Positions 748 through 28,770 of a stretch of DNA of 58,494 nt are shown here, piece by piece. The notes under the pieces were generated by a model that saw only the letters and a program-made list of their open reading frames with translations, was not told the origin of the DNA and did no database searches. Made by a program: the position numbers and the translations under genes. This DNA is from an uncultured Pelagibacteraceae bacterium (GTDB lineage Bacteria > Pseudomonadota > Alphaproteobacteria > Pelagibacterales > Pelagibacteraceae). The DNA is taken from NCBI GenBank assembly GCA_905612415.1, contig CAJQRW010000038.1:1-58494 (forward strand). The letters run 5' to 3'. Numbering within the stretch: position 1 is the first letter of the stretch; every line of letters begins with the position of its first letter.

Positions 748-1617
748 ATGAATTCCACAAATTATAAAGATAAATTAACTATAATTATAGTTTCTTTCTA
801 CTCAAATCATATTTTAGAAAATTTAATTAAGAAATTAGATAAGAGTATTAAAATTCTTATTATAGAAAACTCATTAAATCGTACGACAAAAATTAATCTT
901 GAAAAAAAATTTAATAATGTAAAAGTAATTATACCAGAAAAAAATTTAGGTAATGGTGGGGGAATAAATTTAGGTTTTAGTTTGGTTAAAACAGAATTTT
1001 CTTTATACCTTGATGTAGATACAGTTCCTGAAAATAATATGATCCAAGTGCTTTTAGAAAATGCGGAGAAAATTAAAAACTATTCTATATTAGCACCCAA
1101 AGTTACAAATTTTGATTACGATGAAAATCTGTACATTCATTATGAAAAAAGTAAAAAAATACACCAAATAAAATTTATTACAGGATGTGTTTTGTTTTTT
1201 AATATGAAAGCTTTATCTAAAACGGGATATTTTGATGAAAATATTTTTCTATATTATGAAGAGCATGATCTATATTTTAGATGTAACAAATTAAATTTAC
1301 CTATTTACTTGATAGATGATGCAAAAGTTTTTCACCAAGGCTCGTCTTCAGTTAATATAGAAAATAATCATGAAATTTCTATTAATAGAAATTGGCATTA
1401 CTGTTGGTCAAAATTTTATTACTTTAAAAAAAATTATGGATATTTATTTGGTATAAAGAAAACAATTCCCAATTTTGTAAGAGCTTTAAAAAAATATTTA
1501 TTTTATTCCATTAAATTGGATAAAAAAAAAGCTTTACTTCACAAGGCAGAAATTCAAGGTTTGCTTTCATCTTATTGCTTGCAAAAATCATTCCGCAGAC
1601 CTGAAGTTAATAATTAG
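748..1617 (+). CDS. glycosyltransferase family 2 (rhamnosyltransferase-like)
   Basis: GT2 N-terminal IIIVSFYSN, NLGNGGGINLG, YLDVDTVPE, YYEEHDLYFRC motifs. Confidence 0.85.
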   Translation: MNSTNYKDKLTIIIVSFYSNHILENLIKKLDKSIKILIIENSLNRTTKINLEKKFNNVKVIIPEKNLGNGGGINLGFSLVKTEFSLYLDVDTVPENNMIQVLLENAEKIKNYSILAPKVTNFDYDENLYIHYEKSKKIHQIKFITGCVLFFNMKALSKTGYFDENIFLYYEEHDLYFRCNKLNLPIYLIDDAKVFHQGSSSVNIENNHEISINRNWHYCWSKFYYFKKNYGYLFGIKKTIPNFVRALKKYLFYSIKLDKKKALLHKAEIQGLLSSYCLQKSFRRPEVNN

Positions 1618-1620
1618 ATT

Positions 1621-2757
1621 TTAAATTGTTTTAAGTACTGTTTTTAAAGTTTTAACCACTTTGTATACTTCAGTCATGGTCAACTCAGGGTACAACGGCA
1701 AAGAAAAAATTCCTTTTCCCATTTTTTCAGTAACTAAAAGCTTAAAATTTTTATTAACTTTAATATTTTTATAGGCTTTCATTTTATGAATTGGAAAGGG
1801 GTAATAAATTTTAATTTCAATATTTTTAGATCTTAATTTTTTAATTATTAATTCTCTTTGAGGATGATAAACAGTAAATAAATGATAAACATGTTGGCAA
1901 TTCATTTTTTGATTTGGAAGCTTTAAGCTGGTACTTTTTAGTTCTTTCAAATAAATATTAGCTATCTTTTTTCTTTTACTTATATAACTATTAATTTTAT
2001 TTAACTTTACATTAAGAATTGACGCGTGCAACTCATCTAACCTAGAATTAATACCGTGCTCATTAGCATAATATTTTTTATTAAATTTATTTTTTTTATC
2101 ATTCTGCTCAATACCATAAAATCTAATTCTTTTAATTTTATTATACATTTTAAGTGAGCTTGTTGTTATGAAACCTCCATCACCATAAGCCCCTAATATT
2201 TTTGTTGGATAGAAAGAGAAACAACCAAAATCACCAAATGTTCCAACTTTTTTATTATTTAAAGTAGCTCCTTGTGATTGGGCACAATCCTCTATAATTT
2301 TTAGATTATTTTTTTTTGCGATTTTGCAAATTTTTTCCATATCACAAGGATGGCCATACAAGTGTACAGGAATTATAGCCTTCGTATTTTTGTTAATAAG
2401 TTTTTGGATGTTATTTATATTTATCAAATAATCATTACCAATATCTGCAAATACCGCTTTTGCTCCAGCAGTTGTTATAGCTGACACAGTAGGTATTGCA
2501 GTATTTGATACAGTTATAACTTCGTCATTATGATTGTTTCCAACACCTAAGGCTTTTAAAGAAATAATTAAAGCATCAGTTCCACTACCGACAGCCAGCC
2601 CATACTTAGTTTTATTATGTTTTAAAAAATTCTTCTCAAATTTATGCAATTGGTTTCCAAAAAATAAATTTCCAGATTTTAGAGTTTTATCAATAGAGTT
2701 AAGTATTTCTTTTCTGCTATTTTGGTATTCTTTAATATAAGACCAAGTTTTTATCAT
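1621..2757 (-). CDS. DegT/DnrJ/EryC1/StrS-type PLP-dependent sugar aminotransferase
   Basis: GSGTDALIISLKALGVG, EDCAQSQGA, FSFYPTKILGAYGDGG (PLP lysine) motifs. Confidence 0.92.
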   Translation of the reverse strand: MIKTWSYIKEYQNSRKEILNSIDKTLKSGNLFFGNQLHKFEKNFLKHNKTKYGLAVGSGTDALIISLKALGVGNNHNDEVITVSNTAIPTVSAITTAGAKAVFADIGNDYLININNIQKLINKNTKAIIPVHLYGHPCDMEKICKIAKKNNLKIIEDCAQSQGATLNNKKVGTFGDFGCFSFYPTKILGAYGDGGFITTSSLKMYNKIKRIRFYGIEQNDKKNKFNKKYYANEHGINSRLDELHASILNVKLNKINSYISKRKKIANIYLKELKSTSLKLPNQKMNCQHVYHLFTVYHPQRELIIKKLRSKNIEIKIYYPFPIHKMKAYKNIKVNKNFKLLVTEKMGKGIFSLPLYPELTMTEVYKVVKTLKTVLKTI

Positions 2758-3491
2758 TTAATAATTTTTTTTAACTTATTTATATTCATAGAAGGGTTTA
2801 AGGGGTATTCCTTACCTAATATTTTTTTAGCTGAAATTTTTTTAATATTTAAATTGTATTTTTTAACAAAATTATAAACGCTTTGAATTTTTCCACCTAC
2901 GTTTATAACGCCATTTTTGTTTATTAGTTTAAATAAAAATTTTGCAATATCTTCGTGAAAAATAAAATTAGTAATAAAATCACTAAAAGCCTTGTTGTGT
3001 ACAAAAGGTTTTTCAGTCATACAAACTCTAAGGATTAAAGAATTTTTATACATATGAACCGCACTTTCACCACCAAGCTTTGACCATGAATAGTTATTTT
3101 TTGGAAGGAGCGTACTTTTTTCATTATAATTTCCTTTGATGCCAGGGTAAACATAACTTGTAGAAAAATAAATTAATTTAATATTAAGGTCAGAACATAC
3201 TTTTGTTATGTTGCAGGTACCTATAATATTTAAATCAATACTTTTTCTTAAAAACTTTTCGTGCAGCTCCATTGGTCGCGATAAACCAGCTAAATGAATT
3301 AGATATTTGGGTTTTTTTAGTTTTAAATATTTAGAAATAGAAATTTCATTCAAAATATTAAGTTCATTTTTATTAGGAAACAAAAGCTTATATTTACTTA
3401 CAGTTTTTTTAAGTTCTGTGCCAAAACGACCAGCTCCACCAGTAATTACAATTCTATTTTTATAATGAAACATGGGAAAACCACTCACCAC
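2754..3491 (-). CDS. NAD(P)-dependent sugar-nucleotide reductase/epimerase (dTDP-4-dehydrorhamnose reductase-like)
   Basis: Extended SDR: ITGGAGRFGTEL, LIHLAGLSRP, STSYVYPG, YSWSKLGGE. Confidence 0.7.
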   Translation of the reverse strand: MVSGFPMFHYKNRIVITGGAGRFGTELKKTVSKYKLLFPNKNELNILNEISISKYLKLKKPKYLIHLAGLSRPMELHEKFLRKSIDLNIIGTCNITKVCSDLNIKLIYFSTSYVYPGIKGNYNEKSTLLPKNNYSWSKLGGESAVHMYKNSLILRVCMTEKPFVHNKAFSDFITNFIFHEDIAKFLFKLINKNGVINVGGKIQSVYNFVKKYNLNIKKISAKKILGKEYPLNPSMNINKLKKIIK

Positions 3492-4659
3492 TTTTATTTA
3501 AAAATTCTTTTTCCTTAGCAAAAATTTCTTCTTTATGATTCCAAGCAAATAGATATGCCACATTTGGTAAATTGTTATGAAAATGAGACACTTCTACAAT
3601 TGGAATATGCATACCAGGAGAAAACTTACCAATTTTATCTGGTGTAGTGTCACAAATAAAATCAATAATATTTTTATCTATATTGCAGTAATTTAATATA
3701 GTCGTACTTTTAGATGTCGCCGCATAACCACAAATCATTTTTCCATCTTCTTTTAACTTGTGTAATGCAGCAGATATATTTTTTTTTGAATCTTCACAAT
3801 CTTTTTTAAATTTTAAACAGGATTCTAAATCATCTAATTTTTTGTTTTTTTCTATATCTAAACCTTCTTGTACTCGACTATTTATTTCATGTTTGCCTTT
3901 GCGTCCAACTACATACCTCATAGACCCACCATGCGTAATTTGAGGAATAGCATCAATTAGATCTAAATCAAATAAATTAAAAACTTTTTTAACGGAAGTA
4001 AGAGAAAACATAAAAATATGTTCATCATATATTTGATCATATGAAACTTTTGAAAACATTGAGCCTAAATAGGGTTCTTCAAAAATAAAAACACCTTTTG
4101 AAGATAACAAGCTATCAATTGAACTAATTAAATTATTTAGATCTGGTACATGGCAAATTACATTAGCAGCACATATAACATCCGTTTTATTCTTAAAGTT
4201 TTTTATATTTTCAATATTTTCTTTATTAAAAAAAATATTTAGTGTTTTTATTCCATTTTTAATAGCTTGTTTTGCTACGCTTTCTGATGGTTCGATTCCA
4301 ATGTAATCAACATTGGTGTTAGAGAAGTTTTTTAGGAAAGTTCCATCGTTTGATCCAATTTCAATTAATTTAGAATTGTTTGATAAAAAGTCTTTTTTTA
4401 GCCATTCAGCGTAATCTTTAAAGTGATTAATCATATATTGTGAGCTTCCAGTATAAAAAGGATATTTTTTATTAAAAATTTTTTTTGGGTTTGGAAAATC
4501 ATTTAGTTGAAATAGAGAAACCTTTTCCGAAAAGCCAACCTCCATTTCATAGAAAAATTCGGAATCAAATTCATTGCTATTTAAGAATCCATTTGCCAAA
4601 GGCATTTTGCCAAATGTCATGAAAGGTTTGATATTTTCGCCTGTAATTTTACACTTCAT
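3460..4659 (-). CDS. class I SAM-dependent (NDP-hexose C-) methyltransferase, copy 1
   Basis: IEIGSNDGTFLKNF SAM motif, three-domain layout (~400 aa) of the sugar C-methyltransferase family; paralog of 6645..7844. Confidence 0.8.
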   Translation of the reverse strand: MKCKITGENIKPFMTFGKMPLANGFLNSNEFDSEFFYEMEVGFSEKVSLFQLNDFPNPKKIFNKKYPFYTGSSQYMINHFKDYAEWLKKDFLSNNSKLIEIGSNDGTFLKNFSNTNVDYIGIEPSESVAKQAIKNGIKTLNIFFNKENIENIKNFKNKTDVICAANVICHVPDLNNLISSIDSLLSSKGVFIFEEPYLGSMFSKVSYDQIYDEHIFMFSLTSVKKVFNLFDLDLIDAIPQITHGGSMRYVVGRKGKHEINSRVQEGLDIEKNKKLDDLESCLKFKKDCEDSKKNISAALHKLKEDGKMICGYAATSKSTTILNYCNIDKNIIDFICDTTPDKIGKFSPGMHIPIVEVSHFHNNLPNVAYLFAWNHKEEIFAKEKEFLNKSGEWFSHVSL

Positions 4660-5581
4660 TACTTAAATTTTTAAATTGGTTAAGTGTTGATTTTATGTCA
4701 GAAGATATCTTGGACTTTAATTTAAAAGCTTCAGATGTAAATTTTTGATTTGATACCATATAAGGGTATTGATTTATTAATTTAGAACTATGATATGCAA
4801 TTTTAACTTTCTTATTATACTTCTTAAAACTTTTTACAATATTCATTAATGTAAGATTTTCTGACAATACATTATAAACATCATTTTTAAAAAAATTATG
4901 GTCTAGTGTAAATTTTATTACATCAAAAGCATCTTTTAAAGAGAGATAAGGTTTAGGTTTATCCATCATTCCTTTCCACAATGGCAATGGTTTTCCTAAA
5001 GCACAATTTAAACAAAATTTATTAATAGCTGTATGAAACCTCATACCTTTCGAAACTCCAGAAATTGTACCAAACCTATAAGAAATATATTTTATCTTTT
5101 TTCCTTCTTTTTTAATTTTCTTTTCTTCTATTAATTTAATTTCGGCATAGGGAGATTTTGGTTTTAAATCTTTACAAGTCTCATCAACCAAACCTTCTTG
5201 CTCTCCGTAAACGCTTGTGCTTGATATATGTATAAGTCTGGATGATTTCTTTTTACAATATTGTAAAATATTATGAAAGATACCTAAATTGACCTTATAA
5301 ATTTTATTTTTAATTTTAAGACTTCCTTCAGCATCAGTAATGGAAGCTAAATTTATAACTGCATCAACTTTAGGAAAATTATTTAATGCATTCTTTAGAG
5401 ATAAGTCTTTTTGTATAAAGATTATTTTTTTATTAGTTTTAGGTAAGTTTAGTAAAGTGCAAAATCTTTGTGTGGACAAATTATCAATAACATAAATTTT
5501 TTTTAATTTGCTTATTTTATTTATATTTTCTAATAAATAAGATCCAATATGACCCAAGCCTCCTGTTATTAATATTTTCAT
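4649..5581 (-). CDS. NAD-dependent epimerase/dehydratase
   Basis: ITGGLGHIGSYL, STSVYGE, SPYAEIKLIEEK. Confidence 0.8.
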   Translation of the reverse strand: MKILITGGLGHIGSYLLENINKISKLKKIYVIDNLSTQRFCTLLNLPKTNKKIIFIQKDLSLKNALNNFPKVDAVINLASITDAEGSLKIKNKIYKVNLGIFHNILQYCKKKSSRLIHISSTSVYGEQEGLVDETCKDLKPKSPYAEIKLIEEKKIKKEGKKIKYISYRFGTISGVSKGMRFHTAINKFCLNCALGKPLPLWKGMMDKPKPYLSLKDAFDVIKFTLDHNFFKNDVYNVLSENLTLMNIVKSFKKYNKKVKIAYHSSKLINQYPYMVSNQKFTSEAFKLKSKISSDIKSTLNQFKNLSNEV

Positions 5582-5982
5582 TTTTTATTTAAGTATTTTT
5601 TATATTCTTTAAAAGTTTCTATATAATCATTGAATTCATATTCTCTATCATTCATGACCATAAGAGTAGAATCTTTTTTCAAAAATTTAATACTACACCA
5701 ATATTTAGGAGGAACTAAAATTGCAAATTTAGAATTAGAATTTATTGAAATTTTTTTGGTTAAAGTGGTTGTTCTTATTTCTAACAACATTTTCCCTGAT
5801 ACTGCCATAAAAAGTTGTGAACATTTTTTATGAGCATGGTCTCCTCTAATTTTATTAATTTTGCCATGTAAAAAAAATATCCTTTTTATTTTAAATGGAA
5901 AATTATTATCAAAAGTTATTGGCACCAACTTTCCACTTGCGCTATGAAATGATTTTAATTTAATTCTTTTAATATTTTTCAT
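5578..5982 (-). CDS. sugar 3,4-ketoisomerase, FdtA/QdtA (WxcM-like cupin)
   Basis: RIFFLHGKINKIRGDHAHKKCSQLFMAVSGKM, PPKYWCSIKFLKKDSTLMVMNDREYEFNDYIETF are characteristic of the FdtA family. Confidence 0.85.
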   Translation of the reverse strand: MKNIKRIKLKSFHSASGKLVPITFDNNFPFKIKRIFFLHGKINKIRGDHAHKKCSQLFMAVSGKMLLEIRTTTLTKKISINSNSKFAILVPPKYWCSIKFLKKDSTLMVMNDREYEFNDYIETFKEYKKYLNKK

Positions 5983-6509
5983 TAAAATATATTTTTAAAC
6001 TCTTTGAAACTAAAATTTTTTTTATCTTTTTTTGAAACAATAGGTTTATTAATTGGCCATTTTATATTTAAGTCTTCATCATTCCAAAGTATACCAACTT
6101 CATGTTTTGCAGATCTATATTTAGTGCAGTGATAATAAACTATATTTTCTTTTTTTAGAGCTAAAAAGCCATGCGCAAAACCAGCCGGTATGTAAAGTGA
6201 TTTAGCATTTTCATCTGATAATATAATTTTAAAATGTTTTCCAAAAGTTTTTGATTTTTTTCTCAAATCAATAACCACATCTAAGATTGATCCTTTTAAA
6301 ACCGATACATATTTTCCTTGTGTAAATCTTGTTTGTAAATGCATTCCTCTTAAAATATTTTTTTTTGAACTAGAGATGCATCTAAAAATAAAGCTTTTAT
6401 CTTTAAAATTTTTTTTTTTATAATCTTCTTTAAAAAAACCTCTATAGTCTTTATGTATCTCAGACTTAATGACTTTGAGATCTGTAAAACTTGTTGATAA
6501 TATTTTCAT
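5982..6509 (-). CDS. rfbC: dTDP-4-dehydrorhamnose 3,5-epimerase family protein, copy 1
   Basis: DYRGFFKEDYKKK, LRGMHLQ, IPAGFAHGFLAL, ILWNDEDLNIKWP. Confidence 0.88.
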   Translation of the reverse strand: MKILSTSFTDLKVIKSEIHKDYRGFFKEDYKKKNFKDKSFIFRCISSSKKNILRGMHLQTRFTQGKYVSVLKGSILDVVIDLRKKSKTFGKHFKIILSDENAKSLYIPAGFAHGFLALKKENIVYYHCTKYRSAKHEVGILWNDEDLNIKWPINKPIVSKKDKKNFSFKEFKNIF

Positions 6510-6547
6510 TAAAATTTATTTTTGAATATAGTTATTTTATATAATCT

Positions 6548-6587
6548 CACTTATATACGCTAAACATAAGGAAACAAAATTAAATAC
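6548..6587 (-). repeat. 40-bp direct repeat/putative promoter upstream of rfbC copy 1
   Basis: cacttatatacgctaaacataaggaaacaaaattaaatac; 38/40 identical to 8414..8453, same orientation relative to rfbC. Confidence 0.85.
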
Positions 6588-6644
6588 TTTTTACATATTT
6601 TGGTTATATTTCCTGCACAAATAATATTTAAATCTATTTTATTT

Positions 6645-7844
6645 TTATAAAGGTACATGCGAAAACCATTTACCACCATTTGAAGTAAATTTTCTTTCCT
6701 TTGAAAAAATTTCTTTTTTGTGATTCCAGGCAAAAAGATAAGCTACATCTGGGTTCATAGAATGAAAATGAGATACTGGCACGATAGGGATATGAGTACC
6801 AGGAGAAAACTTACCAATTTTTTCAGCAGTGGTATCGCAAATAAATTCAATAGTATTTGAATTTAAACCACAGTAATTCAATAAAGTTGTGCTTTTAGCA
6901 GTAGCAGCATAACCACAAATTTTTTTACCATTCTTTTTAAATTTAATGAGTTCGTTTTTAATTCTTGATTTTGAAAGTTCACAATCCTTTTTAAATTTTA
7001 AACACGAATCTATATCATCTAACTTGTTTTCTTGTTCTTGAGCCAAAAGTTCGTTAACTCGTTTATTTATTTTGTGATTATTTTTTCTTCCAATTATATA
7101 TCTCATTGAACCGCCATGTGACGATTGAGGGATTGCATCAATTAAATCAAAATCAAAGAGATTAAAAATTTTTTTTATAGAACTAAGTGAAAATAAAAAA
7201 ATATGTTCATCGTATATTTGATCAAAAGATACTTGCGAAAACATTGATCCTAAATAAGGATCTTCAAAAATAAATACTCCTTTTGAAGACAACAGTTGAT
7301 CTATAGTCATGATCACGTTTTGTAAATCTGGAATATGAGCTATTACGTTGGCAGAACAAATTACATCAGTATTATTTACGAATTTTTTAACATAATTTAT
7401 ATTTTCTTGGTTAAAAAATAAATTTAATGTTTTTACATTATTTTTATTAGCAAGATTTGCAATAGTTTTTGATGGCTCAAAACCAATATAGTCTACATTT
7501 GTATTATTAAAATTGCTCAGTAAAGTCCCATCATTTGAACCAACTTCAATTAATTTTGAATTTGATTTTAAAAATTCTTTTTTCATCCAATTTGAAAATG
7601 TTTTAAAGTGTAATTTCATATTTTCAGAACTGCTAGTATAAAAAGGATATTTTTCGTTATGCACTTTTTTAGGGTTTGAAAATTCATTAAGCTGGAGTAG
7701 CGAAATTTTATTTGAAAAGCCAACTTCCATTTCATAAAAGAACTCTGACTTAAAATCCTTTTTTTCTAGAAAGCCATTTGCTGATGGCATTCTGCCAAAA
7801 GACATAAATGGTTTTAATTCATCATTGGTAATTTTACATTTCAT
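6645..7844 (-). CDS. class I SAM-dependent (NDP-hexose C-) methyltransferase, copy 2
   Basis: Co-linear high similarity over full 399 aa with 3460..4659 (MKCKIT...VGSNDGTLLSNF...WFSHVPL). Confidence 0.8.
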   Translation of the reverse strand: MKCKITNDELKPFMSFGRMPSANGFLEKKDFKSEFFYEMEVGFSNKISLLQLNEFSNPKKVHNEKYPFYTSSSENMKLHFKTFSNWMKKEFLKSNSKLIEVGSNDGTLLSNFNNTNVDYIGFEPSKTIANLANKNNVKTLNLFFNQENINYVKKFVNNTDVICSANVIAHIPDLQNVIMTIDQLLSSKGVFIFEDPYLGSMFSQVSFDQIYDEHIFLFSLSSIKKIFNLFDFDLIDAIPQSSHGGSMRYIIGRKNNHKINKRVNELLAQEQENKLDDIDSCLKFKKDCELSKSRIKNELIKFKKNGKKICGYAATAKSTTLLNYCGLNSNTIEFICDTTAEKIGKFSPGTHIPIVPVSHFHSMNPDVAYLFAWNHKKEIFSKERKFTSNGGKWFSHVPL

Positions 7845-8374
7845 TTGATATATAATTTTTTAAATTCTTTGAATTTAAAGTTTTTTTTATCTTTTTTTGA
7901 AATTATAGGTTTTTTGATTGGCCAATTAATTTTTAAAACTTCGTCATTCCATAAAATACCTACTTCATGTTTTTGTGATCTGTAATTAGTGCATGTGTAA
8001 TATATAATATTTTCTTTTTCTAAACCCATAAAACCGTGTGCAAAACCTTCTGGTATGAATATTGATCTTGCGTTATTAGCAGATAAAATAGTTTTATAGT
8101 GCTTACCAAAAGTTTTTGATTTTTTTCTTAAGTCTAGTGCTACATCAAAAATAGCACCTTTTAAAACAGAGACATATTTTTCTTGTGCAAATTTAGTTTG
8201 CAAATGCATCCCTCTTAAAACATTTTTTTTAGAACTTGAAGTGCAACCAAAAATAAAATTTTTATTTTTAAAAAACTTTTTTTTATAATCTTCCTTAAAA
8301 AAACCTCTATAATCTTTATATATTTCGGACTGTATTATTTTCAATCCTTCAAAACCTGTCGGCAATATTTTCAT
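7841..8374 (-). CDS. rfbC: dTDP-4-dehydrorhamnose 3,5-epimerase family protein, copy 2
   Basis: About 75% identical (manual alignment) to copy 1; start moved from track start 8416 to MKILPTGF at 8374 because that Met aligns with copy 1 and the extension runs into the repeat/promoter. Confidence 0.85.
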   Translation of the reverse strand: MKILPTGFEGLKIIQSEIYKDYRGFFKEDYKKKFFKNKNFIFGCTSSSKKNVLRGMHLQTKFAQEKYVSVLKGAIFDVALDLRKKSKTFGKHYKTILSANNARSIFIPEGFAHGFMGLEKENIIYYTCTNYRSQKHEVGILWNDEVLKINWPIKKPIISKKDKKNFKFKEFKKLYIK

Positions 8375-8413
8375 TTCAATCTGTTTTTTGAATAAATTTT
8401 TTTTTAATAAACA

Positions 8414-8453
8414 CACTTATATACGCTAAACATAAAGAAACAAAACTAAATAC
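8414..8453 (-). repeat. 40-bp direct repeat/putative promoter upstream of rfbC copy 2
   Basis: cacttatatacgctaaacataaagaaacaaaactaaatac; reverse strand has TTGTTT-16nt-TATAAG resembling -35/-10. Confidence 0.8.
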
Positions 8454-8536
8454 TACCTAAAGTTGTGTCGTTATAATTTCTTATTGGTAGTTTTGGTTTA
8501 AATGATAGTCTACAAATAATTTTTATAAGGAAAATT

Positions 8537-9883
8537 ATGAGTTCAGAAGACACATTAAAAATACCAAATTCTTTACAAGAACATTGGATGCCATTCACAT
8601 CTAATAAAGATTTTAAAGCAAACCCAAGATTAATTACAGAAGCAAAAGGTGTTTATTTAAAAACTCACCATGGAAAAACGCAAATTGATGCGAGCTCAGG
8701 TTTATTTTGTAATCCTCTTGGACACGGAAGAAGAGAAATAACTGAAGCTGTTACAAAACAGTTAGAAACGTTAGATTACGCCCAACCATTTCAACAAGGT
8801 TTTGGTGGCTCATTTGAATTAGCTACAAAAATTTCAAAACATACACCAGGTGATTTAAATAAAATGTTTTTTACAATTTGTGGATCTACTGCAGTAGAAA
8901 CTGCAATTAAAATTGCTGTTGCGTATCATAGAGCAAAAGGTCATGCAGAAAGATTTAGATTTGTAGGGCGTGAACGTGGTTATCATGGAATGAATATTGG
9001 TTGTATTTCTGTTGGTGGAATGGTTAATAATATTAAAACATTTGCAAGTGTTTTGATGCCAGGCGTTCAACACATTAGACACACTCATTTACCAGAACAT
9101 AAATTTGTTAGCGGTCAACCAGAAACAGGAGATTATTTAGCAAACGATCTAGAAGATATTTGTGCAAACTTTGGTGGAGAAAATATAGCTGCTTGTATCG
9201 TCGAACCAATAGCAGGATCAACTGGAACATTGGTTCCACCAAAAGGATATTTGCAAAAACTAAGACAAATCTGCGATAAACATGGAATACTTTTAATTTT
9301 TGATGAAGTTATTACGGGTTGGGGTAGAACAGGTTCTAAATTTGGTGCTGATGAATTTGGAGTAACTCCAGACATTATGACAATGGCAAAAGCCACAACA
9401 AATGGAGTTGTCCCTATGGGAGTTGTTGCTTGCAGTGATTATATTTATGATGCAGTAATGGATGCTTCACCAATAGGTGCAGTTGAATTATTTCATGGTT
9501 ATACTTATTCAGGAATTCCAGTAGCTGTTGCTGCAGCATTAGCAGTACAGGATATTTTTGAAAAAGATGACATTTTTAATAGAGCAAAAAATTTAGCTCC
9601 TTATTTCCAAAAAGGATTGTTCTCTTTACAAGATATAGACGTTGTAGAAAATATCAGAGGCTATGGAATGATGGGTGGAATTGATATGAGAATGAATGTT
9701 AAGCCAGGTAAAGCTGGTTTTGCATGTTTTAAAGCTTGTTATGAAGCTGGTGTGAATTTTAAAGCTACAGGCGATTGTTTAATTATAGCTCCACAGTTTA
9801 TTTGTGAAAAAAAACATATAGACGAAATAATAGATAAATTAAGAACTGGAATATTAAATTATTCTAAAAATCTGAAAAATTAA
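8537..9883 (+). CDS. class III aminotransferase, omega-amino acid (beta-alanine/taurine):pyruvate type
   Basis: HWMPFTSNKDFKANPR, GLFCNPLGHGRREITEAV, GRERGYHGMNIG, VEPIAGSTGTLVPPKGYLQKLR, LIFDEVITGWGRTG. Confidence 0.9.
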   Translation: MSSEDTLKIPNSLQEHWMPFTSNKDFKANPRLITEAKGVYLKTHHGKTQIDASSGLFCNPLGHGRREITEAVTKQLETLDYAQPFQQGFGGSFELATKISKHTPGDLNKMFFTICGSTAVETAIKIAVAYHRAKGHAERFRFVGRERGYHGMNIGCISVGGMVNNIKTFASVLMPGVQHIRHTHLPEHKFVSGQPETGDYLANDLEDICANFGGENIAACIVEPIAGSTGTLVPPKGYLQKLRQICDKHGILLIFDEVITGWGRTGSKFGADEFGVTPDIMTMAKATTNGVVPMGVVACSDYIYDAVMDASPIGAVELFHGYTYSGIPVAVAAALAVQDIFEKDDIFNRAKNLAPYFQKGLFSLQDIDVVENIRGYGMMGGIDMRMNVKPGKAGFACFKACYEAGVNFKATGDCLIIAPQFICEKKHIDEIIDKLRTGILNYSKNLKN

Positions 9884-19429: not shown

Positions 19430-20626
19430 TTATTTTTTAAGTTTCTTAACTATATTTTGTACTGAGATGTAAGGTCTTTTGCTTTTCTTAACAAACTTTT
19501 TTATAAGAAAACTGCTTATATTCCATGGTAAAATAATTAGTGCTTGAAAGTTTTTATACTTTTTTTCATCAACTATTTTGATGGCACTACCAGGTGTATA
19601 CTTGCCAATTTTTAGCTTAGATTTATCTAAAATATAATCAATATGATCAGACGATAAATTGCAAAAATTTAGAAGCGTATTACCCTTCGTGGCCGCTCCT
19701 ATGCCAGCAATTATCTTATTTTCTTTTTTCATTTTATAAATAAATTGGATAATTGTTTTCCTTATGAGGATCATGTTTTTTTCAAATTGATTTACTTTAT
19801 TTAAGCTAATAGTTTTAGTTTTAATTTTTTTAAAGTTATTTTGATTATTTTTGGCGTAAACTCTTAAAGACCCAGACATATAATTAATTTTTTCAATTTT
19901 ATGCACTTCCATTTTATGTTTGTGAAACAATTTTCTTATTGAGTTTTCAGAAAAATAGTTTCTATGTTCGTGATATATAGTATCAAAACCGGCTTTTTTT
20001 ATTAGAGATTCGAGGTCAGGAACCTCTAAAACAATTAATCCATCATATTTTATAACTTCTTTAGCTGCTTTTAAAAAATCAGTTATATTATCTGAGTGAT
20101 TAAAAACATTGGCTCCATAAAAAAGATCTGCTTTAGTAAATTTTTTAACTATTTTTTTTGCTAAGCCTAGACTAAAAAAATCAATAATAGTTGTTACCCC
20201 TTTTTTCTTTGCTAAAATTGAAACATTTTTTGAAGGATCTATTCCAAGAACCTTAGCTTTGGAAAAATTTTTAATCGTATTTAAAAAAGTACCATCATTA
20301 CTCCCAGCCTCTACCACAAAACTATTTTTATTTAATTTTTTTTTAGTGGATAATTTTTTTGCAATTGAATCAAAATGATGTCGCGAAACTGGTGAATTAT
20401 CAGCAGTATATGAATATTTGAATTTTTGATATCTTTCAAAACCTGAAACCTTATTAATTGCAGTAAAATGAAAACAATCACAATAACCAACTTTTAATCT
20501 AAACCTTGGTAGTGCTTTTGCTTCATCTTTTGAATTTAAAAAAGTGTCTGCACAAGGGTGCAACCCAAGATCAATTACTTTTAAAAATTTTTTATGACAA
20601 ATTGCGCAATTATTAATTTTACCCAT
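19430..20626 (-). CDS. class I SAM-dependent methyltransferase (zinc-binding N-terminal, C-methyltransferase type)
   Basis: CAICHKKFLKVIDLGLHPCADTFL...YCDC, VEAGSNDGTFL, AGIGAATKGNTLLNFC. Confidence 0.82.
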   Translation of the reverse strand: MGKINNCAICHKKFLKVIDLGLHPCADTFLNSKDEAKALPRFRLKVGYCDCFHFTAINKVSGFERYQKFKYSYTADNSPVSRHHFDSIAKKLSTKKKLNKNSFVVEAGSNDGTFLNTIKNFSKAKVLGIDPSKNVSILAKKKGVTTIIDFFSLGLAKKIVKKFTKADLFYGANVFNHSDNITDFLKAAKEVIKYDGLIVLEVPDLESLIKKAGFDTIYHEHRNYFSENSIRKLFHKHKMEVHKIEKINYMSGSLRVYAKNNQNNFKKIKTKTISLNKVNQFEKNMILIRKTIIQFIYKMKKENKIIAGIGAATKGNTLLNFCNLSSDHIDYILDKSKLKIGKYTPGSAIKIVDEKKYKNFQALIILPWNISSFLIKKFVKKSKRPYISVQNIVKKLKK

Positions 20627-21601: not shown

Positions 21602-22726
21602 ATGATCACATGGTATAGAAGAAAGAGTTTTTTATCTAAACTAAAAGACGCTTATCTTAAAAGCTTTAATTTATCAAAATTTTGGTCTAATTTAAAAATC
21701 AATAAAATTGATAATGAACTTAAAGAAATCGTAGACAAGTATTTAGCTAGTGAAAGTTTGAAATTTTCTTCTAAATATTGGAATAAATTAAGTATCCATG
21801 CTCTTCGTCAGATTAATGATTTGGGAGTTGAAAAATTTCATACTACGATTTCAAGTCACTACTTCGCTTTTAAGACTATTGATGATGCTTTTATTAAAGG
21901 ATTATTTGATTTTTTAAAGGAAAATAAAATTGAAAATCTTAATATTAATGATCTTATTTTTAAACACGAGGGTTTTAATATCACTCAATCTATAAATTAT
22001 AATTTGATTACCTATTTACTTTATCAATATTTAAAAAAGAATAACTATTCAGATGATCTAAAAACTTTAGAGTCAAATAATTTTATGTTCGAAAGTGCAC
22101 CAATTTTAAAAGTTGATAACTTACGTTTAGTTCAAGATAAATTACACTCTCTTATTGAGTGTAATGAAATTAAAAAAATTATTGAAGATCAAAATGTAAA
22201 ATTAAACTATTTAGAAATAGGTGCTGGGAGCGGAAGAACAACCGAAACAATAATAAAATTAGATAACCGTATTAATAAGTATGTAATTGCAGATTTGCCG
22301 CCAGCTCTTTATGTAAATTATATGAGAGTAAAAAGTACTTTTAAAAATCTTAATGTCAAAATCTGCATAAATGCAAATTCAAATGAAAAACTAAGTAAAC
22401 TTATTGATGAAAATGATATTTTGTTTATTTTTCCTCACCAAATAAAATATTTTAATAATAATTTTTTTGATATTACTTTAGCTATTGACTGCCTACATGA
22501 AATGGAAAAAAAGATTATTAAGAGATACATGGATTTATTTAATTTAAAATCAAAATATTTATATTATAAAGTTTGGGATGAAACTTACGTACCTCATTGT
22601 TTTAACAATTATCTTAATGCTAATAGCAGGGAAGATTACTTTATTAGATCTAATTGGAAGCAAATTTTTTGCAAAAGAAGTATTTGCCCAAACAATTATA
22701 TAGAGCAAGCTTATAAAATTAAATAA
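21602..22726 (+). CDS. putative sugar O-methyltransferase
   Basis: YLEIGAGSGRTTETIIKL, IADLPPALYVNYMRVK, ITLAIDCLHEMEKK. Confidence 0.7.
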   Translation: MITWYRRKSFLSKLKDAYLKSFNLSKFWSNLKINKIDNELKEIVDKYLASESLKFSSKYWNKLSIHALRQINDLGVEKFHTTISSHYFAFKTIDDAFIKGLFDFLKENKIENLNINDLIFKHEGFNITQSINYNLITYLLYQYLKKNNYSDDLKTLESNNFMFESAPILKVDNLRLVQDKLHSLIECNEIKKIIEDQNVKLNYLEIGAGSGRTTETIIKLDNRINKYVIADLPPALYVNYMRVKSTFKNLNVKICINANSNEKLSKLIDENDILFIFPHQIKYFNNNFFDITLAIDCLHEMEKKIIKRYMDLFNLKSKYLYYKVWDETYVPHCFNNYLNANSREDYFIRSNWKQIFCKRSICPNNYIEQAYKIK

Positions 22727-22834
22727 TAAAGATTAAAAGTAATTAAATTAACAGTTACTCGCACTAGTGTTGTTAAGTTAAATTATTGATTGCTTCAAAA
22801 ATAAAAAGTATTATGTATAATCTTATTTCCATAT

Positions 22835-22911
22835 GGCGGGGTAGCTCAGTTGGTTAGAGCGCAGGACTCATAAGCCTGAGGTCAGTGGTTCGATTCCACT
22901 TCCCGCTACCA
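22835..22911 (+). tRNA. tRNA-Met (CAT anticodon)
   Basis: ggcggggtagctcagttggttagagcgcaggactCATaagcctgaggtcagtggttcgattccacttcccgctacca: acceptor, D, anticodon and T arms fold; CCA encoded. Confidence 0.93.
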
Positions 22912-22924
22912 TTTTGGTATTATA

Positions 22925-24052
22925 ATGATTAAAAAAAATTTACAAAAAATATTTAAATTTATTTCATATGGTTTATTTTTTAAAATATATGGAAAAATTG
23001 AAAATTCTATAAACCATAATGCTGACAGTCGAATTATAGTTAAACAAATCAATTTTGATAATAGTTTAAGCTATAATGTTTATAGTATTGAAGGAGGTCG
23101 ACTTTATACAGATAGAGTGCATGATACAGCAGTATTAATTGATAATAATATAATTGATAAACCTTCTTTTCAATTCAGATATACAAAAAATTCTGAGATA
23201 TATAATTCTAATGTAAAAAATAATATTGTTTTTAAAAAAGGGACCCCAAGAAAATTAAAAACATTAAATGGTTCTGTTTTATCCCTATTAACCGGAGGTG
23301 GAGGTAATAATAATTATTGGCATTGGCTATTTGATGTTTTGCCAAGATTGTATTTATGTAACCAAATGATTGATTTGAAAGACATTAATTTTTTTCTAAT
23401 TCCTGATGATATAAAAAGGTTTCAAAAAGAGACTTTGGATTGTTTGAGCATTCCTAAGCATAAGAGACTTTCAAGTAGAATTTATAGACATATAAAAGCA
23501 ACAAAATTATTAACAACTGATCACCCGGTTGTTATTAGTGGAAACGCAAGTAAAGATATCATGAGAATGCCAGTTTGGATCTCACAATGGTTAAAGGATC
23601 AATTTATTAAAAAAAAAAATTTCAAGAAAAATAAAAATATGTCTAGGATTTATATTGATAGAAGTCTACAAAACTCAACAGATTCGCCTCAAAGATTAAT
23701 AGAAAATGAAGATGAAGTAAAAAAGTATTTAGTTAGCAAAAATTTTGTATCAGTGAAACTTCATGACTTAGAATTTATGGAACAGGTTAAACTATTTAAT
23801 AATGCTGAATTTATTGTTGGTTTACATGGTGGTGGTTTTGCCAATTTATCATTTTGCAAACCAGGCACTAAAGTTATAGAAATGAAAAGTATTACCTCAG
23901 GTGATCCAATAAAAAATTTATCTCAAATAAATAAACTAATTTATTATTCTATATCAGTTGATTCTAGTGAGATAAAAAAATTTGAATATCCTAACCAGCA
24001 AGGAAGTATTAAAATAGAAATTAACCAACTAGCCAAAATAATAGAAAGTTAA
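22925..24052 (+). CDS. glycosyltransferase family 61-like protein
   Basis: GGGNNNYWHWLFDVLPRLYL and FIVGLHGGGFANLSFCKPGTKVIEM. Confidence 0.8.
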   Translation: MIKKNLQKIFKFISYGLFFKIYGKIENSINHNADSRIIVKQINFDNSLSYNVYSIEGGRLYTDRVHDTAVLIDNNIIDKPSFQFRYTKNSEIYNSNVKNNIVFKKGTPRKLKTLNGSVLSLLTGGGGNNNYWHWLFDVLPRLYLCNQMIDLKDINFFLIPDDIKRFQKETLDCLSIPKHKRLSSRIYRHIKATKLLTTDHPVVISGNASKDIMRMPVWISQWLKDQFIKKKNFKKNKNMSRIYIDRSLQNSTDSPQRLIENEDEVKKYLVSKNFVSVKLHDLEFMEQVKLFNNAEFIVGLHGGGFANLSFCKPGTKVIEMKSITSGDPIKNLSQINKLIYYSISVDSSEIKKFEYPNQQGSIKIEINQLAKIIES

Positions 24053-24053
24053 A

Positions 24054-24881
24054 ATGAAAAATTTAGAAATGTTTTGTATAACACTAGAACCTAATCATTA
24101 TGACTTTATAAAAAGCTTGGGTTATAATCCTGTGGGACTAGGAGAGAAAAATTTTAACCATCATTGGTTTACTGACAAAAATGGTATTAATATTTCAAAA
24201 AAAAATAAAAACTACGGTGAATATACTTTTCATTATTGGTTATGGAAAAATCATTTAGAAAAACTTAATGATGGTTGGATTGGTTTTTGCCAGTATAGAA
24301 AGTTCTGGTCTCTAGACGAAACTAAACAAGAAAAAATAAATTTTAAAACATTAAAAGATAAAGTATTAAAGGAAATACCAAATAGTTTTAATAAATACGA
24401 TTCAATTCTTATAAAACCAATGTATATAAATCAATGGAAACCAATGAAGTTTTTAAAAAAAGGTTTATCTATTGTGTTAAAAAAACCAATAGTACTTTTT
24501 AATAAAGATAAAAGAAATTTAAAATTTCATTTCGACCTGATGCATGGATACAACAATCTTAACAAAGCAATAGATTTTCTTGATGCAAACAATAAAGAAG
24601 ATTTTAGAAAATTTGTTAATAAAAATGTTTCTTTTAATCCACAAAATATGTTTATCTGCAAGTCTAGGTCTGTATTAAAAAATTATTATGAAGATTTATT
24701 TCCTTGGCTTGAAAAGTGTGAAAAATTATTTGGGTTTGAAAATTTAAAAGGATTTGGAAAAATCAGAATATACGGTTTTCTTGCTGAAAGATTCATGTCC
24801 TACTGGTTTCAAAAAAATACAAAATATAAGGAAATTTCCATGATTTTTTACGATGTGCGTAATGATTTAAATAAGTTTTAA
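24054..24881 (+). CDS. DUF4422-like putative glycosyltransferase
   Basis: NYGEYTFHYWLWKNHLEKLNDGWIGFCQYRKFW pattern, RIYGFLAERFMSYWF. Confidence 0.5.
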   Translation: MKNLEMFCITLEPNHYDFIKSLGYNPVGLGEKNFNHHWFTDKNGINISKKNKNYGEYTFHYWLWKNHLEKLNDGWIGFCQYRKFWSLDETKQEKINFKTLKDKVLKEIPNSFNKYDSILIKPMYINQWKPMKFLKKGLSIVLKKPIVLFNKDKRNLKFHFDLMHGYNNLNKAIDFLDANNKEDFRKFVNKNVSFNPQNMFICKSRSVLKNYYEDLFPWLEKCEKLFGFENLKGFGKIRIYGFLAERFMSYWFQKNTKYKEISMIFYDVRNDLNKF

Positions 24882-25759
24882 GAATTATTTTTCTTTATAA
24901 AATTTAATAAGTATCGTGAATAATCACATTTTCCATAAAATTTAACAGCATTCAAAACTTCTTTTTTTTTAATCCATTTATTATTAAATGCTATCTCTTC
25001 TAAGCAAGCAATTTTAAGACCCTGTCTATTTTCTAATGCCGCAACAAAGGCTGAGGTTTCATAGAAATCTTTTATTGACCCAGCATCAAGCCAAGCTCCT
25101 CCACGTCCCAAAAATTTACATGATAGAGATTTATTTCTTTTATAAATATTTAGCAAATCAACAATTTCAAGTTCATTTCTTTTTGAAGGTTTTAATGTTT
25201 CAAAATAATTAACAACTTTATTATCAAAAAAATATAAACCTGTAATAGCAAGATTAGAAATATTTTTTTTAGGTTTTTCAATAATTTTAATTATTTTATT
25301 TTTTTTATTTATGCAAGCTACACCATAAGATGAAGGATTATTTACTGGATGCAATATTACAGTTGCGCCTGATTTAAGTTTAACACATTTCTTTAATTGT
25401 TCAGTTAAACTTTGTCCATAAAAAAAATTATCCCCTAAAATTAAAGCTACGTTATCATTGCCAATAAAACTTTTTCCAATATTAAATGCATCAGGCAAAC
25501 CCTTGGGATAATTTTGTTCAGCAAAAGAAATCTTAATACCTAAGTTATTTCCATTTGGTAAAACTTTTTTAAATTGGTTTAGTTGACCTTTGTTTACTAT
25601 AATTAATATATCTCTTATCCCCGCTAGCATTAAAACAGATAATGGGTAATAAATTAAAGGTTTATCGTAAATCGGCAACAATTGCTTATTTACAGCTTTC
25701 GTAACAGGACTCATCCGTGTTCCTAACCCACCTGCTAAGATAATACCTTTTTTAATCAT
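24878..25759 (-). CDS. rfbA: glucose-1-phosphate thymidylyltransferase
   Basis: KGIILAGGLGTRMSPVTKAVNKQLLPIYDKPLIYYPLSVLMLAGI, GRGGAWLDAGS. Confidence 0.96.
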   Translation of the reverse strand: MIKKGIILAGGLGTRMSPVTKAVNKQLLPIYDKPLIYYPLSVLMLAGIRDILIIVNKGQLNQFKKVLPNGNNLGIKISFAEQNYPKGLPDAFNIGKSFIGNDNVALILGDNFFYGQSLTEQLKKCVKLKSGATVILHPVNNPSSYGVACINKKNKIIKIIEKPKKNISNLAITGLYFFDNKVVNYFETLKPSKRNELEIVDLLNIYKRNKSLSCKFLGRGGAWLDAGSIKDFYETSAFVAALENRQGLKIACLEEIAFNNKWIKKKEVLNAVKFYGKCDYSRYLLNFIKKNNS

Positions 25760-26787
25760 ATTTTTAATCCTAATCTTCCAGTGTAAAGTTTTTTTGAAAC
25801 ACTTTTAAAAAAAACTTTATTTTTAGTATACCAATCAAAAGTTTGTGACAATCCTTCCTCTAAAGATATTCTAGCTTTCCATTTAACAGTTTTTAAAATT
25901 TTACTATTATTGAGTGCGTATCTAAAGTCATGTCCTGGCCTATCTTTTACAAATTTAATTTTTGTATTTTTGCCAATTTTAATAGATTTTTTTTTTGCAA
26001 TAAATAATATTTTTTTTGTAATATTAATATTTGTTAAATTTTGATTTGAACCAACATTATAACTTTCACCTATTTTACCTTTATTAAATAACTTTAATAA
26101 TGCTTCACAATGATCAAACACATGTATCCATTCCCTTGAATTTTTACCTAAACCATATATCGGTAGAGGTTGATTATTTAATATATTGTAAATCAATTTT
26201 GGTATTAATTTTTCAGGAAATTGATTTGGGCCATAATTATTACAGCAGTTAGATATAACTGCAGGTAATTTATAAGTTCTCATATAAGCTCTTACCAAGT
26301 GATCTGCGCTAGCTTTAGAAGCTGAATAGGGAGAGCTAGGAATGTAGGAGGATTCTTCTACCGATCTTGTTCCTTTTTTAATATCACCATAAACTTCATC
26401 AGTAGAAATATGAATTAATTTAATTTTCTTAGAACTTGTTTTAATATATTTTTTTAAAGCTTCAAGAAGATTAAAAACTCCCAAAATATTACTACTAATA
26501 AAATTTTTTGGATTTTCTATAGATCTATCTACATGCGTTTCTGCAGCTAGATTAAAAACTCCATCAGGTTTGTATTTTTTTAATATATGTATTATTTTAT
26601 CTTTATTATTTATGTCACATTTGTAAAACTTATAATTTTTATCTTTAGCTAACTTTTTCAAATTGTATGGATTTGCTGAATAGCTTAATTTGTCTATATT
26701 TATGACAAAGCATTTTTTCTTTAGTAAGTATTTCACTAAGTTGCTTCCTATAAAACCAGATCCACCTGTCACAATAAATTTTTTCAT
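25756..26787 (-). CDS. rfbB: dTDP-glucose 4,6-dehydratase
   Basis: VTGGSGFIGSNLV, NLAAETHVDRSI, HISTDEVYGD, SPYSASKASADHLV, NNYGPNQFPEKLIP. Confidence 0.95.
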   Translation of the reverse strand: MKKFIVTGGSGFIGSNLVKYLLKKKCFVINIDKLSYSANPYNLKKLAKDKNYKFYKCDINNKDKIIHILKKYKPDGVFNLAAETHVDRSIENPKNFISSNILGVFNLLEALKKYIKTSSKKIKLIHISTDEVYGDIKKGTRSVEESSYIPSSPYSASKASADHLVRAYMRTYKLPAVISNCCNNYGPNQFPEKLIPKLIYNILNNQPLPIYGLGKNSREWIHVFDHCEALLKLFNKGKIGESYNVGSNQNLTNINITKKILFIAKKKSIKIGKNTKIKFVKDRPGHDFRYALNNSKILKTVKWKARISLEEGLSQTFDWYTKNKVFFKSVSKKLYTGRLGLKI

Positions 26788-26868
26788 ATTCTAATTTAAA
26801 AAAAAGGTCCTATCTAATAAATTTAAGTGTTAAGATATTAAGATTATAAAATTAATAATGTTTAAATA

Positions 26869-27714
26869 ATGTCAATTAAAGATATAACCATAGTAATAGC
26901 ATCATTTAGAAGCAAAACAAAAATTAAGAAATGCTTAAATTCAATTGACAAAAATTGCCATGTAATTAATGTTGAAAATTCTAATGATCTTGATTTTAAG
27001 AGAGATATTGAGGAAGAATTCCCGAATGTTAAATGCATACTGACAGGAGAAAACCTAGGATATGGAAGAGCTAACAATATTGGAATCAAAGAAATCAAAA
27101 CTAAATATGCTTTAATAATTAATCCTGATACTGAATTATATCCTGAGACTCTTGAAGCTTTTTCACTTTCAGCTCAACAATATCCTGATTTTGCTATTAT
27201 AGGTCCAAATGTTATATACGCAGAAACTAAAACTAAAACTAATTATTCTAAACAACCTAAAATTCATAAAGCAGAAAATGTAAAGGGGTTTGCTATGTTT
27301 TTAAACTTATATGAATTTAAAAACATAGGTTTTTTTGATGAAAAATTTTTCATTTATCTTGAGGAAATCGATTTATGCAAAAGAATAATTAGTAACAATA
27401 AAAAAATTTATTGGGATTCAAATATTCCCATTTTTCATCAAGGAGGTCAATCTCATGATAATTCTATAAATTATGAGATGGAACTTTCAAGAAATTGGCA
27501 TTGGATGTGGTCAACTTTTTATTATAATAAAAAGTATAAAGGTTTTTTGCTTTCTTTTTTAATAATTTTTCCAAAAATGTTGTCAGCCATAACAAAAATT
27601 TTAATTTACTTCTTATTATTGAACAATAATAAAAAAAAAATATATTGCCAAAGGCTTTCTGGCATATTTAATGCAATAATAGGAAAAGATTCTTGGTATC
27701 GTCCAAAAGTTTAA
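26869..27714 (+). CDS. glycosyltransferase family 2 (paralog of 748..1617)
   Basis: VIASFRSK, ENLGYGRANNIGIK, NPDTELYP, FIYLEEIDLCKR; shared RNWHxxWSxFYYxKK C-terminal motif with 748..1617. Confidence 0.85.
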   Translation: MSIKDITIVIASFRSKTKIKKCLNSIDKNCHVINVENSNDLDFKRDIEEEFPNVKCILTGENLGYGRANNIGIKEIKTKYALIINPDTELYPETLEAFSLSAQQYPDFAIIGPNVIYAETKTKTNYSKQPKIHKAENVKGFAMFLNLYEFKNIGFFDEKFFIYLEEIDLCKRIISNNKKIYWDSNIPIFHQGGQSHDNSINYEMELSRNWHWMWSTFYYNKKYKGFLLSFLIIFPKMLSAITKILIYFLLLNNNKKKIYCQRLSGIFNAIIGKDSWYRPKV

Positions 27715-27753
27715 TTATTGATTTATAGCAATTAAAAATATACAAAACTTCAA

Positions 27754-28770
27754 ATGACAAAATCTATTAAAAAAATTTTAGTTACGGGAGTGGCTGGTTT
27801 TTTAGGTTCACATTTAGCTGAAAAATTATCTGAACTAAAATATGAAGTAGTAGGCGTAGATAATATGCTTGGTGGATATAAAGATAATATACCTAAAAAT
27901 ATTGATTTTCATAATTTGGATTGTTGTGATTTAAATAAAATGAATAAAATAATGAAAGATGTTGATGTCGTCTATCATTGCGCTGCTACTGCTCATGAAG
28001 GCTTATCAGTTTTTTCCCCTGTTGAAATTACAAAAAATAATTATATGGCTTCAGTATCTGTTTTTACTTCTGCTGTTGTTAATAAAGTAAAAAGAATAAT
28101 ATTTTGTTCTTCTATGGCGCGATATGGAGATCAACAAACACCATTTACAGAAGACATGATTCCTAAACCGATTGATCCATATGCTATTTCCAAAGTTGCT
28201 GCTGAAAGTGTTTTAATAAATCTTTGTGACTTAAATAATATTGAATGGGTAATAGCTGTTCCACATAATATAATAGGACCTAGACAGAAATATGATGACC
28301 CTTTTAGAAATGTTGTTTCAATAATGCTAAATAGGATGATGCAAAAAAAAGCACCTTTGATTTATGGTGATGGAAACCAAAAGAGATGTTTTTCTTATAT
28401 CGATGATTGTATTAGTTGTTTATTACCAATGCTAGATCAAAAAAATTTACATAAGCAGGTTATAAATATTGGTCCAGATGAAGAATTTGTTACAATTAAT
28501 GAAGTTTCTGAAATATGTTCAAATATTACAGGTAGTAATTTAAAGCCTATACATAAAAAAGATAGACCCAGGGAAGTTAAGCATGCAACATGTTCTGCAG
28601 ATAAGGCAAGAAAATTACTAAACTATAAAACAACAGTAGATTTAAAAAGCGGGATTACAAAAACCTACGAATATATAAAAAAAAGAGGGAGCAAACCTTT
28701 CGAATATTATATAAATATAGAGATTAACAACGAACTTACACCAGAAGTTTGGACTAAAAAGGAACTTTAA
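27754..28770 (+). CDS. NAD-dependent epimerase/dehydratase (UDP-sugar 4-epimerase-like)
   Basis: VTGVAGFLGSHLAEKL, HCAATAHEG, DPYAISKVAAESV, HNIIGPRQKYDDPFRNV. Confidence 0.85.
   Translation: MTKSIKKILVTGVAGFLGSHLAEKLSELKYEVVGVDNMLGGYKDNIPKNIDFHNLDCCDLNKMNKIMKDVDVVYHCAATAHEGLSVFSPVEITKNNYMASVSVFTSAVVNKVKRIIFCSSMARYGDQQTPFTEDMIPKPIDPYAISKVAAESVLINLCDLNNIEWVIAVPHNIIGPRQKYDDPFRNVVSIMLNRMMQKKAPLIYGDGNQKRCFSYIDDCISCLLPMLDQKNLHKQVINIGPDEEFVTINEVSEICSNITGSNLKPIHKKDRPREVKHATCSADKARKLLNYKTTVDLKSGITKTYEYIKKRGSKPFEYYINIEINNELTPEVWTKKEL

Follow-up and report, generated by a model that had tools for sequence, protein, structure and literature searches.

Why should a 40-base stretch of DNA be more alike in its two copies than the genes that it precedes? 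The window, by which we mean the whole stretch of DNA analysed (58,494 nucleotides from an uncultured Pelagibacteraceae bacterium), raises this question with an element that occurs twice on the minus strand: copy a at 8414-8453, which looks like a promoter of rmlC2 and lies in the gap between rmlC2 and the divergent gene tpa, and copy b at 6548-6587, a promoter-like site of rmlC1. The original prediction placed the two copies, identical at 38 of 40 bases, upstream of both rmlC (rfbC) genes, whose proteins were put at ~75% identity. Our analysis bore this out: there were 0 matches in 100 dinucleotide shuffles, and rmlC1 and rmlC2 are 75% identical in protein, 79% in DNA and 62% at third positions. 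The element has the consensus CACTTATATACGCTAAACATAARGAAACAAAAYTAAATAC (the motif first printed was one A short) and reads GTATTTARTTTTGTTTCYTTATGTTTAGCGTATATAAGTG on the minus strand. It ends 38-39 nt before the rmlC start codon in both copies (ATG 8374 and ATG 6509); a GTG at 8416 was rejected as the rmlC2 start, the ATG at 8374 being likely from comparison with homologues. The abrupt bounds that had been claimed were also found. On the distal side the match breaks off after 41 bases, on the proximal side the stretch between element and ATG is much less similar between the copies, and the longest exact match is 22 bases. Allowing as many as 3 mismatches, we found no third copy in the genome (0.78 Mb; an assembly 62% complete, in 72 contigs) or in 22 further members of the genus.

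The two copies stand before two gene cassettes that lie in tandem on the minus strand. The outer one begins with rmlC2 (7841-8374), a dTDP-4-dehydrorhamnose 3,5-epimerase gene above the TIGR01221 cut-off, and continues with the sugar C-methyltransferase gene MT2 (6645-7844; assigned by PF08484, PF13489, PF08421 and a tree) and the remnant of an SDR gene. The inner one comprises rmlC1 (5982-6509; likewise above the TIGR01221 cut-off), an FdtA/WxcM-like sugar ketoisomerase (5578-5982; PF05523), an NAD-dependent epimerase/dehydratase (4649-5581; PF01370), the sugar C-methyltransferase MT1 (3460-4659), the RmlD-like SDR1 (2754-3491; PF04321) and a DegT-family sugar aminotransferase (1621-2757; PF01041), and is syntenic gene for gene with a cassette of the relative G002 at 65-80% protein identity. 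A family 2 glycosyltransferase gene (748-1617, plus strand; PF00535), also syntenic with G002, lies on the far side of the island, and the conserved flank on the other side is tpa, a class-III omega-aminotransferase gene (8537-9883, plus strand; PF00202, and above the NF052567 cut-off), with an alanine dehydrogenase gene next after it. The identified products of the island are sugar-nucleotide enzymes and one glycosyltransferase only. Together, the RmlC, FdtA-like ketoisomerase, C-methyltransferase, RmlD-like reductase and DegT families suggest that the cassette product is a C-methylated amino-deoxysugar. Elsewhere in the window, ~16 kb from the island, rmlA- and rmlB-like genes of dTDP-sugar synthesis (24878-26787) may feed the rmlC cassettes, and a third sugar C-methyltransferase paralogue (19430-20626), ~30% identical to MT1 and MT2, lies near a group of glycan genes (21602-28770).

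Comparison with relatives revealed that the island occupies a fixed site. In at least 13 other members of the genus there is no island, and a binding-protein gene, in our reading tauA, stands immediately beside the aminotransferase gene in divergent orientation; it is because of this neighbor that we read 8537-9883 as a putative taurine:pyruvate aminotransferase gene, tpa, and both names carry that qualification. In ten genomes of two genera rmlC replaces tauA beside tpa, each time with a homologous element: the window's own genome (G000), G002, G011 and G019, and, in the second genus, G144, G200, G302, G398, G414 and G392. In the relatives checked, tauA stands at the far end of the sugar genes, so that the cassette lies between tpa and tauA. 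In the window's genome the tpa side of the island is present and tauA is on a different contig, 140 bases short of its end, which fits the same layout but does not prove it. The genes between these fixed flanks vary while remaining similar in function, as in a replacement island: G200 has rmlC-SDR, G011 and G019 have rmlC-SDR with one gene more, G302 and its kin have rmlC-MT-SDR, and G002 has rmlC-fdtA-epimerase-MT-SDR-DegT with a glycosyltransferase gene and others besides. Every other genome examined has a single cassette; none of them showed the tandem arrangement of the window.

What, then, is the element? The original prediction saw in it a leader that spans a -35/-10-like pair, and half of that pair stood. 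A -10-like box, GCGTATATA (TATATA/TATAAG), with GCG directly before it, is conserved with some changes in all ten genomes at an aligned position, and as a sequence near TATAAT at a fixed position it has what is expected of a sigma-70 -10 element. The proposed -35 sequence, TTGTTT, matches TTGACA, expected at a spacing of 16-18 nt, at 3 of 6 positions only; it is T-rich and unconserved, and a consensus promoter scan did not call the pair. The downstream half of the element, with GCGTATATA, is confined to rmlC-type gaps. In an alignment with tauA-type gaps the upstream half (GTAGTATTT.ATTTTGTTTy) proved to be old control DNA of tauA/tpa that is conserved throughout the genus, island-free relatives included. 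The stretch from box to ATG varies from ~9 to ~45 nt across genomes and its sequence is not conserved, so the element looks like a promoter and the term leader does not hold. A structured RNA leader or riboswitch was ruled out by this lack of conservation and by the lack of any Rfam match at E values up to 1 in 6400-8700; a JUMPstart/ops element was ruled out by the absence of the ops core GGCGGTAG from the window. We thus consider the element to be, most likely, the core promoter of an rmlC-first deoxysugar cassette, from which transcription would start and which would let the cassette be expressed as an operon. It is not a new regulatory class, having a weak and unconserved -35, no wider glycan regulon, no RNA family and no JUMPstart/ops.

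The idea of a shared site for surface-glycan genes in general did not survive comparison with 397 genomes of the family. Such a site, bound by a regulator of several operons, would explain why both copies precede sugar-nucleotide operons. However, the assembled genome, 62% complete as it is, holds only the two copies, and exact matches to a 17-base core of the element are confined, across the 397 genomes, to tpa-linked rmlC genes and copy b. The proposed search of relatives thus did recover the motif, before tpa-linked rmlC but not before a wider set of glycan operons. Matches with one mismatch were about as frequent in these genomes as those to a reversed control pattern, and none of them preceded rmlC, making a general glycan regulator very improbable. 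Scans of wider collections with the same core gave scattered matches in unrelated bacteria and phage contigs, apparently by chance.

The element evolves more slowly than synonymous sites. Between orthologues in the second genus it is 97-100% identical, against 32-88% at four-fold sites (97% against 51% for the pair G302-G414), and between orthologues in the window's own genus it is 62-88% identical, against 28-47% (88% against 47% for G002-G011), with 28-51 four-fold sites per pair. Since the element changes more slowly than these sites, the comparison supports purifying selection on it, one of the two forces originally invoked, and the outcome that had been named as contrary (no other occurrences, and synonymous sites equally conserved) is the reverse of what the orthologues display. 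Could selection alone, with promoters as old as the genes and a sequence that a regulator or sigma factor needs, account for the likeness of copies a and b? The element stands far above four-fold conservation in every orthologous comparison, as this explanation would have it, yet within the genus the identity between orthologous elements in this role is only 62-88%, and copies a and b have an indel and bases in common that are absent from G002 and G011. Selection therefore does not appear to keep the sequence at 95% identity over that span of time, and we regard it as quite improbable that selection acted by itself.

The sharp distal boundary of copy b is explained by its neighbor. Between the stop of MT2 (6645) and copy b lies a broken SDR gene, SDR2 (6560-6679, minus strand), which retains an SDR N-terminus and the stretch IDLNIICAGNITKIC, carries an internal deletion of ~60 residues, and is joined to the element at the distal edge, 6588. 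Read from 6679, the frame gives MVVNGFRMYLYKNKIDLNIICAGNITKICKKYLILFPYV. Its beginning resembles SDR1, the intact counterpart, and overlaps the end of MT2 as SDR1 overlaps that of MT1; after the ~60-residue jump the frame matches IDLNIIGTANITKIC and then enters copy b, ending within it at TAG 6562-6560. The protein scored above all 300 shuffles against each of 6 SDRs, and the DNA above all 500 shuffles against each of 4. Since the remnant is fused to copy b, and the match between the copies breaks off at this joint, the abrupt distal boundary is the fusion joint itself. The outer cassette therefore used to consist of rmlC-MT-SDR, as the cassette of G302 does.

The genes behind the two promoters appear to have histories of their own. 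In the methyltransferase tree MT1 groups with its G002 orthologue (support 100/98), and a clade of MT1 with MT2 was rejected (p-AU 0.0036), although the G002 branch is long and may bias the tree. On this tree the split between MT1 and MT2 predates that between this species and G002. The rmlC trees group rmlC1 and rmlC2 weakly (68/86 for DNA, 90/90 for protein) and do not reject a grouping of rmlC1 with the G002 gene (p-AU 0.104). By contrast, several bases and an indel unite elements a and b and set them apart from G002 and G011, a pattern discordant with the methyltransferase tree. Promoters and genes thus seem to differ in history, probably through recombination between strains. The two elements are 95% identical, against 62-88% for any orthologous pair in the genus, yet the rmlC genes behind them are as diverged as orthologues, which points to a younger common origin for the promoters than for the genes. 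An identity of 39/41 has a binomial probability of ~0.01 against an expectation of 81%, and of ~0.12 against the best pair in the genus (88%); over only 41 bases, this is suggestive of a younger origin but not conclusive. The likeness of the copies thus points to both selection and common origin.

Gene conversion, the other force in the original prediction, could also have given the promoters a younger origin, and it is the main rival: rmlC-MT-SDR would have been duplicated in tandem long ago, and conversion would later have touched the 41-base promoter only. MT2 falls outside the group of MT1 and G002, as an old duplicate should, and the contrast of 95% identity between the elements with 79% between the rmlC genes is as expected of it. 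However, conversion tracts of no more than 41 bases with sharp ends would be unusual, the joining event alone explains why the tract would end exactly at the SDR fusion, and the other genomes examined carry a single cassette. We therefore consider this history unlikely. We see only a slim chance that the tandem is an artifact, two strain variants of the locus joined in a chimeric assembly. The assembly is incomplete and in 72 contigs, and tandem cassettes are absent from the other genomes examined, as such an artifact would predict, but the joint lies within an internally deleted SDR remnant and involves no long exact repeat, the copies sharing at most the 22 bases noted above without a mismatch.

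We favor, at a probability of roughly 0.7, a history in which the element is the promoter of a cassette lying between tpa and tauA, and in which an rmlC-MT-SDR cassette was joined before a resident one, both promoters deriving from one tpa-linked site. The upstream half of this promoter would be inherited tauA/tpa control DNA, and the -10-like box downstream would start rmlC transcription. DNA of a close strain, arranged tpa-P-rmlC2-MT2-SDR2, would have recombined through the conserved tpa/promoter flank on the homologous side; on the other side an illegitimate joint before the resident promoter would have left a broken SDR gene fused there. The outer rmlC-MT-SDR would thereby have been stacked on the resident rmlC-fdtA-epimerase-MT-SDR-DegT; a circular intermediate that integrates through the promoter would give the same product. 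Both promoters would go back to one tpa-linked site carried by closely related strains, and purifying selection would have kept them alike, while the genes behind them would belong to older, separate lineages. The direction and route of recombination we infer from the product, and we found no donor that carries exactly the outer cassette.

The control DNA at this site may carry more than a core promoter. Upstream of tauA there is a box, TACAACYTnnAGTA, which in G002, G011 and G019 recurs before rmlC on the opposite side of the island (contig C9 1950/9804, C1 86763/89213 and C11 31781/34026, respectively). The window's genome has the box at tauA (contig C25) and a variant at copy a, which alignments place at 8454-8470 directly adjoining the element (ACAACTTTAGGTAGT on the minus strand); copy b lacks it because the SDR remnant occupies that place. 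The box matches 25 times in the genus against 16 times for the reversed control, little above chance, so that its position is its sole support. Its presence on both sides looks as if tauA/tpa control DNA had been duplicated when the island arrived. Among the rmlC-type genomes of the genus, the tpa-side gap at 8454-8536 (TTTGTAGACTATCATTT, AAAACTACCAATAA, ACAACYT..GTAGTA) shows 84-92% identity; within it is an inverted pair, ACTACC...GGTAGT, a possible regulator site. A working box would leave the outer cassette under taurine-linked control and the inner one without it, which is a lead only. A broader idea, tentative and in our judgment rather unlikely, is that the tpa/tauA control region serves sugar cassettes as a docking site, at which arriving ones adopt a copy of taurine control DNA as their promoter, surface-sugar genes thereby acquiring taurine-linked control and the copies in turn enabling stacking. 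Were it true, variable cell-surface genes in streamlined genomes would gain ready-made regulation. The locus also offers a testable case of sugar genes that have adopted control DNA belonging to a taurine operon.

How does this locus compare with known systems? Its element resembles a sigma-70 promoter with a dominant -10, having in ten genomes a TATATA/TATAAG-like box shortly before the start codon, and differs from a typical one in its T-rich, unconserved -35 and in the GCG before the box. JUMPstart/ops, an element of RfaH-controlled glycan operons, is likewise conserved DNA upstream of sugar operons of the surface-glycan type, but here GGCGGTAG is absent from the window and conservation lies at the promoter rather than in a transcribed leader. 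Homology-facilitated illegitimate recombination is well established (PMC3240628), and its combination of a homologous side with an illegitimate joint would yield just such a truncated SDR gene at a resident promoter; in our case it is deduced from the product alone, with no donor, recipient or DNA uptake observed. Known glycan variation in SAR11 centers on the O-chain cluster in the rRNA region (PMC4033161, PMC2217521, PMC11898729, PMC7318151), where this cluster, HVR2, lies between the 23S and 5S rRNA genes (PMC4033161, PMC2217521, PMC11898729), and HVR1, HVR3 and HVR4 of HTCC1062 have been described with other contents (PMC2217521). We found no published description of a cassette site at tpa/tauA in the open-licence literature. 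The present island, in a bacterium that small AT-rich genomes and gene content mark as apparently SAR11-type, lies outside the well-studied O-chain cluster, is much smaller than the O-chain/HVR2 islands and differs from them in its tpa-tauA site and in its two stacked cassettes, each with a promoter copy. It shares with the replacement flexible genomic islands of SAR11 its exchangeable sugar genes, fixed site and conserved flanks, and may likewise be renewed by recombination. The repeat thus looks like a conserved cassette promoter that was copied along with a stacked cassette, within the known class of flexible sugar islands, and leaves a readable scar of that stacking, a record of island growth rather than a new type of switch.
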